A stretch of DNA of 64,000 nt, taken from the NCBI GenBank assembly GCA_016195025.1, contig JACQAL010000068.1:1-64000 (forward strand). Reading direction: 5' to 3'. Below the pieces are notes generated by a model. It did no database searches, was not told the origin of the DNA, and worked only from the letters and a program-made list of their open reading frames with translations. The stretch is from Bacteroidota bacterium (GTDB lineage: Bacteria; Bacteroidota; Bacteroidia; Palsa-948). Shown in pieces: positions 32,830 through 36,518 of this stretch. Positions within the stretch are counted from its first letter, which is position 1, and every line of letters begins with the position of its first letter. Made by a program: the position numbers and the translations under genes.

Positions 32830-35637
32830 ATGACCAGAGACCAGGCGAAAGCCACCATAGAAAAGTTAGTTGAACGCTTCCGCGAACATCGGAACGATTA
32901 CCATTTAGCCGATTATAACGAAGCAAAAACTCGTCAGGATTTCATCAACCCGTTTTTCAAAGCATTGGGTTGGGATGTAGATAATGAGGAAGGACACAGC
33001 GAAGCTTATCGCGAGGTGATCTATGAAGATAAGGTACTTGTTAAAGGAAAAGCGAAAGCGCCCGACTACGGATTTCGGCTTTCGGGAAGCGCGAAAAAAA
33101 GATTGTTTTATGTGGAAGCGAAAAAACCATCCGTTTCACTCAAGGCAAATAAAGAATCCGCCTATCAGTTGAGGCGTTATGGAAGCAGTGCGCAGGCGTA
33201 TGTTTCCATTCTCACAAACTTCGAGGACTTTATTGTTTACGATTGTTCGCGCGTTCCAAATCTGCACGACAGCGCGAGCGTTGCGAAACTAAAGCACATT
33301 CACTTTGAAAAATATCTCGAAGAGTTTGATTTTATTTACGACACCTTTTCTCACGAAGCGGTTACGCATGGTAAGTTCGACAAGTATGTGCAAAGCGACA
33401 CAAATAAAAAAGGAAGCCAAACGCTCGACAAAGAATTTGTTCAAAGTTTGGATGAGTGGCGCAGATACCTTGCCGTAAGTATTGCGCACAACAACCGAAA
33501 ATTAAATGACGAAGAAATAAATTTTTCTGTTCAGCAGACGATTGACCGATTAATTTTCCTGCGCTTCTGCGAAGACCGCGCGGTAGAACCTTACGGACAG
33601 TTGCAGAAAGAAGTTTCAAAAGGAAATTCCTATCAAAATCTTTTTCATCTTTTCAAGTTAGCCGATGATAAATATAATTCAGGTCTTTTCGATTTCAAGA
33701 AAGATGTAATTACTCCTCACCTTAAGGTCGACAATAAAGTAATAAAATCAATAATTGAAGACCTTTATTATCCGCTCTGCCGATACGAATTTTCCGTAAT
33801 GCCTGTTGAAGTTCTCGGAAACGCCTACGAGCAGTTCCTCGGAAAAGTAATTCGCATTACACCCGCGCGAAGTGTGCGCATTGAAGAAAAACCCGAAGTA
33901 CGAAAAGCGGGCGGAGTTTATTACACGCCTCAATACATAGTTGAATACATTGTAAAAAACACTGTCGGAAAACTTGTTGACGGAAAATCCCCGAAAGAAA
34001 TTGAGAAGATAAAAATTGTTGACCCCGCTTGCGGAAGCGGTTCTTTTCTTGTGGGCGCGTTTGAATATTTATTGAATCATCACATTAACTGGTATCACAA
34101 TAAAGGTTACGCAACTAAAAAAGGAAAAGATAATCCCTTCACTCCGCAAGGCACATTAACCACCCACGAAAAAAAGCGCATACTGCTCAATAATATTTTC
34201 GGAGTTGATATTGACGCCAACGCGGTGGAAGTAACCAAACTCAGTTTGCTTCTCAAATGTATGGAAGGTGAAACCGAAGCCAGCATTAAACAGCAGCTTA
34301 GTATGTTTCACGAGCGGGTTCTCCCCGATCTCGATAAAAATATTAAAGACGGAAACAGTTTAATTGATACGGATATTTACGATAGTGAAATGGCTTTAGG
34401 TTTTGAGAAAAAAATTAAACCTTTCAGTTGGAAGAAAGGATTTCAGGATGTGTTTAAACAAGGAGGGTTTGATGTGGTGATTGGAAATCCGCCTTATGTT
34501 AATTTAGTATCTATTGAAGAGGAGCAACGGAGTTACTTTCAAGAAAAATTTAAAACCTGTAAGAATAAGAGCGATTTATATTCCTTCTTCATTGAAAAAT
34601 CAATTTCTTTAATCAACGAAGAAAAATCTAAGTTTGGATTTATTGTTCCTCATACTTGGCTTGCTACTGAAAGTTTTGAATTGCTACGCAAATTATTGAT
34701 TGAAAACAAACTAATTGAAGAAATTGTTGAAATGGGATTCAAAGTATTTGACGAAGCAATAGTCAGTACAGTTATAATTATTTGCTCTCATAATAATTCT
34801 TCTATCAAGGTTAGAAATCGTGATTTTTCTGAAAGAGTAAAAATTCCCTATAAGTTTCTTCAAAATAATAATTTCAGTATTGACCTTGAGTGGAGCGAAA
34901 GCAAACAAAAACTTTATGATAAAATTGGATTGGGTTCTGAGCCACTTGAAAAATTTATTTCATTTTCAAGAGGGATAAAGACAAGTGATGATACTCGTTT
35001 TATTCTTAATGACAAAAAAAATAAAGATTGCTATAAAATATTCAGAGGTAGAAATATCAAAGCATATCAATTAAATTGGGAAAAGGAATGGGTATGGTAT
35101 CGTCCTGATTTAATGAAAGAAAAAGTTGGTTGCCTTCCGCATTCAAAAGAATTCTTTGAAGTATCTGAAAAATTAGTAACTCAAAGAGTGAATAGTTCTA
35201 TGCAATTGCTGGTTACATACGATAATCATAAAAATTATTTTTTAGATACAGTTAATGTTTCTCGCTACGATTCATGGGACAAGAAACATTCATTAAAATA
35301 TATCTGCGGTGTATTAAACTCAAAATTGGTTACGTATTGGTATTGCAATAAATATAAAATGCCTACTATCGGCTTATACGAATTACATTCAATCCCAATA
35401 AAGCCAATTGATTTTAAAAATACTGCCGAGAAAAATACACACGATGAAATTATAAAACACGTTGACTTACTTCTGAAACTTAATGAAGAATTACAAGAAG
35501 AAAAACTTCAAACAAAAATCGAACAGATAAAACAACGAATAGAACACAGCGAAGAAAAAATTAATGAATTGGTTTATGAGTTATACGATTTAAAGAAAGA
35601 TGAAATAAAAATAATAGAAGAAGCACAAAATAAATGA
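32830..35637 (+). CDS. Type IIG restriction-modification enzyme (nuclease-methyltransferase fusion)
   Basis: 935 aa. The N-terminal PD-(D/E)xK nuclease is seen as Pro78-Asp79 ... Glu96-Ala-Lys in KRLFYVEAKKPS. A helical linker leads to an N6-adenine methyltransferase with motif I DPACGSGSF at about 398-406 and motif IV NPPY at about 553-556 (gamma-class order). The C-terminal part (about 650-880) is a TaqI-like target-recognition region, and the last 60 residues are a coiled coil. It cuts and methylates the same short asymmetric site, so no separate S subunit is needed. Its stop codon lies in ATGA, overlapping a 33-bp direct repeat that once was the start of the small partner gene. Confidence 0.92.
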   Translation: MTRDQAKATIEKLVERFREHRNDYHLADYNEAKTRQDFINPFFKALGWDVDNEEGHSEAYREVIYEDKVLVKGKAKAPDYGFRLSGSAKKRLFYVEAKKPSVSLKANKESAYQLRRYGSSAQAYVSILTNFEDFIVYDCSRVPNLHDSASVAKLKHIHFEKYLEEFDFIYDTFSHEAVTHGKFDKYVQSDTNKKGSQTLDKEFVQSLDEWRRYLAVSIAHNNRKLNDEEINFSVQQTIDRLIFLRFCEDRAVEPYGQLQKEVSKGNSYQNLFHLFKLADDKYNSGLFDFKKDVITPHLKVDNKVIKSIIEDLYYPLCRYEFSVMPVEVLGNAYEQFLGKVIRITPARSVRIEEKPEVRKAGGVYYTPQYIVEYIVKNTVGKLVDGKSPKEIEKIKIVDPACGSGSFLVGAFEYLLNHHINWYHNKGYATKKGKDNPFTPQGTLTTHEKKRILLNNIFGVDIDANAVEVTKLSLLLKCMEGETEASIKQQLSMFHERVLPDLDKNIKDGNSLIDTDIYDSEMALGFEKKIKPFSWKKGFQDVFKQGGFDVVIGNPPYVNLVSIEEEQRSYFQEKFKTCKNKSDLYSFFIEKSISLINEEKSKFGFIVPHTWLATESFELLRKLLIENKLIEEIVEMGFKVFDEAIVSTVIIICSHNNSSIKVRNRDFSERVKIPYKFLQNNNFSIDLEWSESKQKLYDKIGLGSEPLEKFISFSRGIKTSDDTRFILNDKKNKDCYKIFRGRNIKAYQLNWEKEWVWYRPDLMKEKVGCLPHSKEFFEVSEKLVTQRVNSSMQLLVTYDNHKNYFLDTVNVSRYDSWDKKHSLKYICGVLNSKLVTYWYCNKYKMPTIGLYELHSIPIKPIDFKNTAEKNTHDEIIKHVDLLLKLNEELQEEKLQTKIEQIKQRIEHSEEKINELVYELYDLKKDEIKIIEEAQNK

Positions 35638-35659
35638 GCATATCAGTTCGCATAAAAGA
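35627..35659. repeat. 33-bp direct repeat, left copy
   Basis: Identical to 36125-36157 except for one base (c versus t). It spans the stop of the type IIG gene and a truncated start ATGAGCATATCAGTTCGC that reads nine codons and stops. It marks one side of the DUF559 cassette. Confidence 0.85.
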
Positions 35660-36124
35660 ATAACCTGTCCCCCTCTTGAGGGGGATAAAGGGGGAGGAAA
35701 ATGAAAGCCACAAAAGAAAACCATAACCTATATAACACGCACGTGCGAGAAAACGCACATGAGTTGCGTTACACCATGACCAAAGCGGAAGCATGCTTAT
35801 GGAAGTACGCTTTAAGAGCAAAAATGATGAATGGATATACATTTAACAGGCAACGTGCAGTATTAAATTACATTGCCGATTTCATGTGCAAAGAATTAAG
35901 ATTGGTAATTGAAGTGGACGGATATTCACATACTTTGGATGAGGTGATTAAAAAAGATGAAAAGAAACAAACCGATTTAGAAAAAGCAGGATTTACAGTT
36001 GTTAGATTTACTGATGAAGAAGTATTGAAAGGAATTGAAAATGTAAAACGAGCGATTGAACAAACAATAGAAAGATTGGAGGAAAATAAATAACCTCCCC
36101 CTGCCCCCTCCAGAGGGGGATAAA
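35660..36124 (+). mobile_element. DUF559 nuclease cassette with hairpin inverted ends
   Basis: A 465-bp segment between the two 33-bp direct repeats. Left end: hairpin ccccctc-tt-gaggggg (35669-35684), then gggggagg (35690-35697). Right end: cctccccc (36094-36101), then hairpin ccccctc-ca-gaggggg (36104-36119). The ends are therefore inverted relative to each other. A single gene of the DUF559 nuclease family lies between. I infer insertion with a long target duplication. Confidence 0.7.
35701..36093 (+). CDS. DUF559 (VSR-like endonuclease domain) protein
   Basis: 130 aa. The fold of Vsr/PD-(D/E)xK-type nucleases is recognisable: an N-terminal helix with AEACLWKYALRAKMMNGYTFNRQ, then NYIADFMCKELRLVIEVDGYSH (Asp in IADF, Glu and Asp in IEVDG, then His) as the catalytic core, and FTVVRFTDEEVLKGIENV at the C-terminus. 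Such proteins are thought to nick or cut DNA; biochemical data on this family are scarce. Its start follows the left terminal repeat and its TAA lies in the right one. The gene has inserted between the type IIG gene and its partner. Confidence 0.85.
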   Translation: MKATKENHNLYNTHVRENAHELRYTMTKAEACLWKYALRAKMMNGYTFNRQRAVLNYIADFMCKELRLVIEVDGYSHTLDEVIKKDEKKQTDLEKAGFTVVRFTDEEVLKGIENVKRAIEQTIERLEENK

Positions 36125-36157
36125 AAAATAAATGAGTATATCAGTTCGCATAAAAGA
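36125..36157. repeat. 33-bp direct repeat, right copy
   Basis: The copy that retains the functional start of the small partner gene (ATG at 36132). It matches 35627-35659 at 32 of 33 positions. Confidence 0.85.
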
Positions 36158-36518
36158 TTGTATTGATAACCACGATAAATACGTGGAGAAATTGGCAACT
36201 AAATCTGATAAGGAATTAGCAAAGCGACTTGATTTAGTTCATATACAAATGGAGCTTGCCCATAAAGCAAAAAATACTGGTTCATTAGAACTGCTTGAAA
36301 TCTGGCGCACACAAATAATAGAAGCACGTATTTACAAAGCCGAAAATAATATTGCAGATGTTCCGAGTGAAATCGAATTGGCAATTGCAGATATGGAAAC
36401 ATTCATAGCCAAAGCAGAAGAACGGCAGGAAATAGTAAAAGAAGAAACAAAACCTGTTGAACAGCCCGCGTCAAAAGTAAAGCAACAGGATGACGACAGT
36501 CAGTTAACCCTGTTTTAA
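36132..36518 (+). CDS. Small partner of the type IIG enzyme, C-terminal clamp-like motif
   Basis: 128 aa, not a recognised family. Residues 1-100 are strongly helical and charged (DKYVEKLATKSDKELAKRLDLVHIQMELAHKAK and later AIADMETFIAKAEER). A Pro/Glu/Gln linker follows and the chain ends DSQLTLF, which fits the QLxLF form of beta-sliding-clamp-binding motifs. Before the DUF559 cassette came in, its ATG overlapped the stop codon of the type IIG gene (ATGA), so the two were translationally coupled. I infer an accessory subunit that ties the enzyme to the replication clamp or modulates it; that is untested. Confidence 0.7.
   Translation: MSISVRIKDCIDNHDKYVEKLATKSDKELAKRLDLVHIQMELAHKAKNTGSLELLEIWRTQIIEARIYKAENNIADVPSEIELAIADMETFIAKAEERQEIVKEETKPVEQPASKVKQQDDDSQLTLF

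Follow-up and report, generated by a model that had tools for sequence, protein, structure and literature searches.

A DUF559 cassette between two host genes

The DNA analysed here is a 64-kb stretch of contig JACQAL010000068.1 from a Bacteroidota bacterium (assembly GCA_016195025.1), called the window throughout, and our subject is a 465-bp inserted element within it whose single open reading frame (ORF) encodes a nuclease of the DUF559 family (PF04480, E 9.9e-31, 106 bits against a cut-off of 20.6). The element separates a methylase-like gene from the gene of its partner protein and is flanked by a 33-nt direct repeat whose two copies are 32/33 identical at a spacing of 498, for which the chance expectation is about 1e-11 in 1.2 kb (Table 1). 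The upstream gene keeps its own stop (35635-35637), and the real start of the downstream gene (36132) lies within the right repeat, the left repeat holding a truncated start only. Joining the flanks in silico, with the element and one repeat removed, produced an ATGA overlap of the two host genes. The same ATGA overlap, with no insert, joins the partner and methylase-like homologues of two congeneric genomes (L017 and L019), which supports a derived insertion; because these homologues are only ~50% identical, they do not fix its exact junction. The original prediction, made from the letters of the window, had described the hairpin-ended segment with its repeat, the truncated and real starts, the retained stop and the restored overlap, and each of these was found as described.

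Table 1. Features of the insertion locus, in window coordinates.
Feature	Position	Strand	Source
Upstream host gene, Eco57I/TaqI-like methylase-specificity protein (type IIG/BREX PglX-like), intact	32830..35637	+	
Left 33-nt flank repeat: upstream gene end and truncated downstream gene start (target copy)	35627..35659	+	
Inserted element, 465 bp	35660..36124	+	
Left-end intrastrand triplex motif (hairpin and mirrored third strand)	35669..35697	+	
DUF559 (PF04480) nuclease ORF, 130 aa	35701..36093	+	Pfam
Right-end intrastrand triplex motif, inverted orientation	36094..36119	-	
Right 33-nt flank repeat with functional downstream gene start	36125..36157	+	
Downstream host gene, 128 aa, partner of the methylase-like gene	36132..36518	+	

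The element ends are intrastrand triplex motifs by sequence

Each end of the element is built from a hairpin and an inner arm, with the left hairpin reading CCCCCTC-TT-GAGGGGG (35669-35684), the right hairpin reading CCCCCTC-CA-GAGGGGG (36104-36119), and the arms GGGGGAGG (35690-35697) and CCTCCCCC (36094-36101) both lying inside the hairpin pair. The complete left end is CCCCCTC-TT-GAGGGGG-ATAAA-GGGGGAGG, its last block mirroring the purine strand of the hairpin, and the right end is CCTCCCCC-TG-CCCCCTC-CA-GAGGGGG, or CCCCCTC-TG-GAGGGGG-CA-GGGGGAGG on the minus strand. By their sequence, both ends match the definition of an intrastrand triplex motif (ITM), an inverted repeat combined with a mirror repeat, and do so perfectly over 7 nt; our criterion was a hairpin of 6-15 bp, then a short loop and a mirrored third strand. 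Such motifs are the Box C/PIT/TMECO repeats of E. coli, with the consensus CCCTCNCCC-N3-6-GGGNGAGGG-N3-GGGNGAGGG, which fold as a triplex in vitro with inconclusive evidence in vivo, and which have been linked to genome instability and raised local genome variability, the main study having seen no mobility gene or function nearby (PMC4666352). At the left end of the window element, the G-rich third strand doubles as a Shine-Dalgarno-like GGAGG ahead of the nuclease ATG.

Folding energy was dropped as uninformative, the self-folding of the window ends being unremarkable (z -0.7 to -1.6), and the evidence for these ends is their recurrence and pairing rather than their energy. Nor did the palindrome type of the window element prove to be present in many copies: the exact sequence CCCCCTCNNGAGGGGG occurs at just three sites in the genome, and no other hairpin of this type was seen elsewhere in the 64-kb window. 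The broader ITM pattern gave 73+64 matches in the source genome versus 0 for the control.

A conserved EDxHD-like nuclease under purifying selection

Aligning 69 DUF559 sequences, we found D60, E71, H77 and D86 invariant and D73 present in at least 90%, a set that we read as a predicted EDxHD-like active site. The nuclease is under purifying selection, with ratios of nonsynonymous to synonymous substitution (dN/dS) of 0.03-0.17 wherever dS was unsaturated. The predicted structure of the window nuclease (pLDDT 87.6) matches the fold of NGO0050 from Neisseria gonorrhoeae (3hrl, E 3.8e-8) and that of the catalytic domain of the EDxHD homing endonuclease I-Bth0305I (3r3p, E 3.3e-4; sequence profile E 9e-7), of which it is a remote relative. 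The assignment of DUF559 to the Vsr/PD-(D/E)xK nucleases, which the original prediction had stated, agrees with the Pfam match, the conserved active-site residues and the fold, and with the earlier placement of YcjD-like proteins in the PD-(D/E)XK superfamily near Vsr (PMC1189080).

Paired triplex motifs recur around DUF559 domains

The source genome holds seven full DUF559 genes and one fragment, and all seven full genes are bracketed by inverted hairpin units that differ in sequence, as are most of the 43 DUF559 domains from seven congeneric genomes. A separate scan covered 80 DUF559 loci from Bacteroidota, Chloroflexota, Proteobacteria, Cyanobacteria, Patescibacteria and others. Across 117 DUF559 domains from many phyla, a strict ITM was present within 200 nt on both sides in 51 cases, as against 0/422 control positions taken in the same loci with a shift of 1-1.5 kb, and on at least one side in 86 cases, as against 48/422 controls. 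Where ITMs were paired, their orientation was inverted in 39 of the 51 pairs (p 2e-4). An inverted-repeat score test gave a similar separation (29/40 and 41/77 DUF559 loci versus 0/147 and 1/275 controls), and hairpins stood on both sides of 56% of DUF559 loci compared with 1.2% of controls. These ITM counts are conservative because the detector, which required a stem of at least 6 bp, misses the shorter motifs of flavobacterial MetH insertions. At one locus (L048, G005:C114:35449-36333), two DUF559 genes stand in tandem and the right end is repeated, which would fit duplication of an element or its insertion in or beside another.

Similar elements occupy unrelated and polymorphic sites

The window element shares ~73% identity with an element of another species that precedes an rsmD-like gene (L073), and the similarity is confined to the element, starting at the left end and stopping at about the ATAAA of the right end, with differing flanks and nearly identical right ends. 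In the same manner, the copy in RecJ, shared by three species, is similar to one inside acetyl-CoA synthetase, and the copy in Sua5 to two that lie between genes. A single RecJ site shows three states. The protein has 591-598 aa in three species that are empty and 728-763 aa in three that carry the full element, whose insertion lengthens the gene by exactly 137 codons (L170 versus L173) and leaves no target duplication. One further species (L176, G002:C92) has two ITMs at this site, in frame and with no nuclease between them, which is possibly a relic resembling a miniature inverted-repeat transposable element (MITE) or a REPIN. The gap between ffh and folD has the element in three species and lacks it in four, and DUF559 lies within MetH in 6/136 genomes, with occupied and unoccupied copies in the same genera.

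The original prediction had proposed insertion with a long staggered target duplication. Neither of the findings that it named as refuting was seen, as hairpin ends recur and DUF559 genes are not fixed to one operon position, but duplications are mostly absent: long non-palindromic flank repeats occur at a handful of the ~117 loci only, and duplication lengths are 0 at RecJ, 33 for the window element and 63 at a third locus (L086), with mostly none elsewhere. We therefore rejected a long target duplication as a hallmark of the element, and a classical insertion sequence with a fixed target duplication also does not describe it, since DUF559 is the sole gene and the duplication length varies. 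The 33-nt duplication in the window is best seen as an occasional by-product, retained since both overlapping genes stayed intact. At L086 (G000:C1:6180-6515), the 63-nt flank duplication covers half of a neighbouring palindrome together with the end of the upstream gene.

Many elements are read in frame within host proteins

Within the sample listing of the class, 53 of 150 DUF559 domains lay inside open frames of at least 300 aa. Hosts confirmed with Pfam comprised RecJ, RecG, TsaD, MutS, acetyl-CoA synthetase, TsaB, Sua5, a SpoIIE-type phosphatase and methylmalonyl-CoA mutase in a first set, and MetH, LeuRS, IleRS, MetRS, UvrA, urocanase, adenine deaminase and HsdM in a second. Both hairpins of such in-frame elements read as Pro/Gly-rich linkers, and in RecJ the insert splits the DHH domain of the host mid-domain. 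Splicing of these inserts is unlikely because no Hint/intein domain was found in 18 in-frame proteins by Pfam scan and no Rfam intron at gathering score in ten in-frame loci. At the window locus, Rfam returned no intron up to E 1 and one chance-level match to whalefall-1. The original prediction had missed both the identity of the ends as Box C-type triplex motifs and the translation of many copies in frame in housekeeping proteins. Single triplex-type palindromes also lie inside long ORFs of the source genome (L009, L186, L188, L191 and L192), where they may read as Pro/Gly-rich inserts.

Motif load follows DUF559 copy number, and RAYT genes lack the motifs

Across 149 genomes of the class, we compared matches to the pattern CCCC-N-GGGG-N-GGGG with those to a reversed control. 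The 66 genomes with no DUF559 showed no excess (807 versus 818 control), genomes with 1-2 copies gave 1050 versus 376, and those with at least three copies gave 1714 versus 163, about tenfold, with a Spearman correlation of 0.48 between DUF559 copy number and ITM excess over all 149. In the group with at least three copies the excess amounts to about 12 pattern matches per nuclease gene, a figure that overlapping matches may inflate about twofold, and even allowing for this it is greater than two flanking copies would provide.

RAYT-type Y1_Tnp genes are present in 6/7 congeneric genomes, with one copy in the window. Among those of the same genus, paired ITMs were found at 0/20 and the genes' own inverted repeats at 12/20, compared with paired ITMs at 22/40 congeneric DUF559 genes, and one genome (G001) has no Y1_Tnp gene yet holds two DUF559 elements. 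On these grounds RAYT is unsupported as the mover of the elements. The window copy (PF01797, 4428-4766, minus strand, L203), of RAYT/IS200 type, has a modest inverted repeat in its flanks and no triplex motif.

A candidate mobile element and its alternatives

Taken together, the comparisons show that the nuclease and an ITM pair occur jointly at many unrelated sites in many phyla, that these sites are polymorphic for presence, and that nuclease-free ITM pairs and single ITMs exist as well. The insertions are either intergenic or in frame within host genes, where ITMs and nuclease are read as part of the host protein. We consider it probable that the window cassette represents an autonomous or nuclease-assisted mobile element in which two inverted ITMs enclose one DUF559 nuclease gene, the only gene present, with the nuclease acting on the ITMs. 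The mobile unit with hairpin ends that the original prediction had proposed, by analogy with RAYT-REP and homing-nuclease systems, gains support from the recurrence across phyla, the same ends at unrelated sites, and the empty alleles. Mechanistically, the EDxHD/Vsr-like nuclease would recognise or cut the ITM, probably while the latter is extruded from replicating DNA in folded, single-stranded form, and the resulting break or displaced strand could let the element be copied, by repair or replication, to a new location or to an allele that either is empty or has an ITM. ITMs alone could be carried in trans. Insertion would usually leave no target duplication; in the window, the 33-nt duplication kept both ATGA-overlapping genes intact, an outcome that selection would favour.

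Several observations weigh against this interpretation. The correlation over 149 genomes is not corrected for phylogeny, and four genomes (G050, G079, G083 and G099) are ITM-rich with no detectable DUF559, a pattern that loss of the nuclease, or another driver, would also produce. Orthologous copies are included in the data set, making the pairing counts only partly independent, and the MetH and RecJ sites may be old insertions that were vertically inherited. Nuclease-palindrome covariation was set aside as support, being weak within the genus (rho 0.23, partly from orthologues) and, globally, not beyond all shuffles (Mantel r 0.13). The DUF559 protein has no counterpart of the long DNA-binding arm of I-Bth0305I. 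The E. coli gene ycjD has Box C motifs on its 3' side only, and this copy looks degenerate because it has no triplex motif on the 5' side. The direction of causation, finally, is one that we infer.

The alternative to which we give most room, while holding it doubtful, is that the element spreads by homing only, with cut-and-repair carrying it into unoccupied alleles of its own site, and is not a transposon, the ITMs being structural or expression features. Homology to I-Bth0305I, the recurrent insertion at shared sites of MetH, RecJ and LeuRS, and the precise RecJ insertion with no duplication all fit such a history; insertion restricted to the cognate allele is not what we found, given closely similar elements at non-homologous sites (window and L073, RecJ and acetyl-CoA synthetase, Sua5 and intergenic) and ITMs that not only accompany the nuclease in its moves but are also found singly or in pairs without it. 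If instead the ITMs were moved by a RAYT/IS200-type HUH transposase, or by replication slippage at folded DNA, DUF559 would be a captured passenger. Y1_Tnp genes are indeed widespread in the genus and present in the window, and some ITM-rich genomes are without DUF559; we nonetheless regard this reading as unlikely, with Y1_Tnp genes flanked by their own inverted repeats and never by ITM pairs, elements in a genome that has no Y1_Tnp, no group-level ITM excess without DUF559 and an excess that grows with its copy number. It would also be surprising if the passenger captured between ITMs were, in phylum after phylum, of the same gene family, and one under strong purifying selection.

Two further readings take the in-frame copies as their starting point. 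DUF559 might be a functional defence or repair nuclease domain, fused to hosts or placed in operons, with the hairpins serving as terminators or messenger stabilisers, and repair and restriction hosts (RecJ, RecG, MutS, UvrA, HsdM) and weak PADLOC matches to restriction-type models can be cited for it. It is very unlikely in view of hosts unrelated in function (MetH, LeuRS, IleRS, MetRS, TsaB, TsaD, Sua5, urocanase), the split RecJ DHH domain and the empty orthologues in sister species; nor would terminators be expected to be translated in frame, or to form inverted, matched triplex pairs. An intein or self-splicing intron carrying the nuclease would account for the in-frame position in housekeeping genes and for the homing-endonuclease-like domain, yet with no Hint domain in the scanned in-frame proteins, no Rfam intron in ten loci, and a reading frame that continues across both ends, something an intron could do without, we give this reading hardly any credence. 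Returning to a mobile DUF559-ITM element, we lean, by a little, towards a distinct class of bacterial mobile element in which one EDxHD/Vsr-like nuclease would recognise triplex-forming ends and spread both itself and gene-free ITMs, including unspliced in-frame insertions in housekeeping genes. No description of DUF559 mobility was found in the open-access literature, preprints and subscription papers lying outside the search, and the element is apparently undescribed.

Should a distinct class be correct, the Box C/PIT/TMECO repeats, and possibly rhizobial RIME-like repeats, would be non-autonomous relics of DUF559 elements, and repeats familiar from E. coli since the 1990s, which hundreds of genomes contain, would gain a candidate mobility gene. 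The candidate family makes the question directly testable, with a member in E. coli K-12 (ycjD) and a solved structure (3hrl). The frequent and overlooked in-frame, non-splicing insertions in housekeeping enzymes (aminoacyl-tRNA synthetases, MetH, RecJ, MutS, TsaD) bear on annotation and enzyme engineering, and the data suggest a compact nuclease that may recognise DNA shape rather than sequence.

Relation to known systems and to E. coli

Box C/PIT/TMECO repeats share with the window ends a hairpin, spacer and mirrored third strand of the G/C-rich class II, and, like the element ends, they often form inverted pairs and are patchy between strains; they have been described as gene-free and strictly intergenic in E. 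coli (PMC4666352), whereas the ITMs studied here bracket a nuclease and also lie inside coding sequence. RAYT (TnpA-REP) genes with their REP/REPIN sequences offer the same layout of one small gene between inverted palindromes, with gene-free palindromes more numerous in the genome. The RAYT nuclease is an HUH Y1 enzyme (PF01797), whereas the element encodes only PF04480, of the PD-(D/E)xK/EDxHD type, its ends are triplex motifs, its in-frame insertion is frequent, and RAYT genes of the same genus are without ITMs; by this analogy the element appears to work like a RAYT/REP system and not to be a member of one. I-Bth0305I has a homologous catalytic domain with the same E-D-H-D pattern and also invades protein genes, the element differing in its lack of an intron, intein or long DNA-binding region, its own inverted repeat ends, and its non-homologous sites (PMC3943268). 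NGO0050 and YcjD belong to the same DUF559 family and fold, and have been annotated as putative endonucleases only, with no link to repeats described (YcjD in PMC1189080). Rickettsia palindromic elements (RPEs) and other coding MITEs are likewise palindromic insertions translated in frame. RPEs are not known to carry genes, whereas the DUF559 element holds a nuclease gene between its ends.

In E. coli K-12, a degraded triplex motif overlaps the 3' end of the DUF559 gene ycjD, and ~165 bp downstream of the gene lies a motif with the very sequence of TMECO no. 9 from K-12 (PMC4666352). We also considered ycjD as a precise empty-site comparison and rejected it, as strains without ycjD carry eefRABCD between sapF and fabI and offer no clean empty allele. 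Gonococcal DUF559 genes, including NGO0050, and those of Sinorhizobium adjoin C/G-rich hairpin repeats, the latter of which presumably recall RIME elements. Two of the loci (L087 and L088), taken from PLSDB records NZ_CP141089.1 and NZ_CP119142.1, are labelled as plasmids, yet these records are chromosome-sized E. coli and N. gonorrhoeae sequences.

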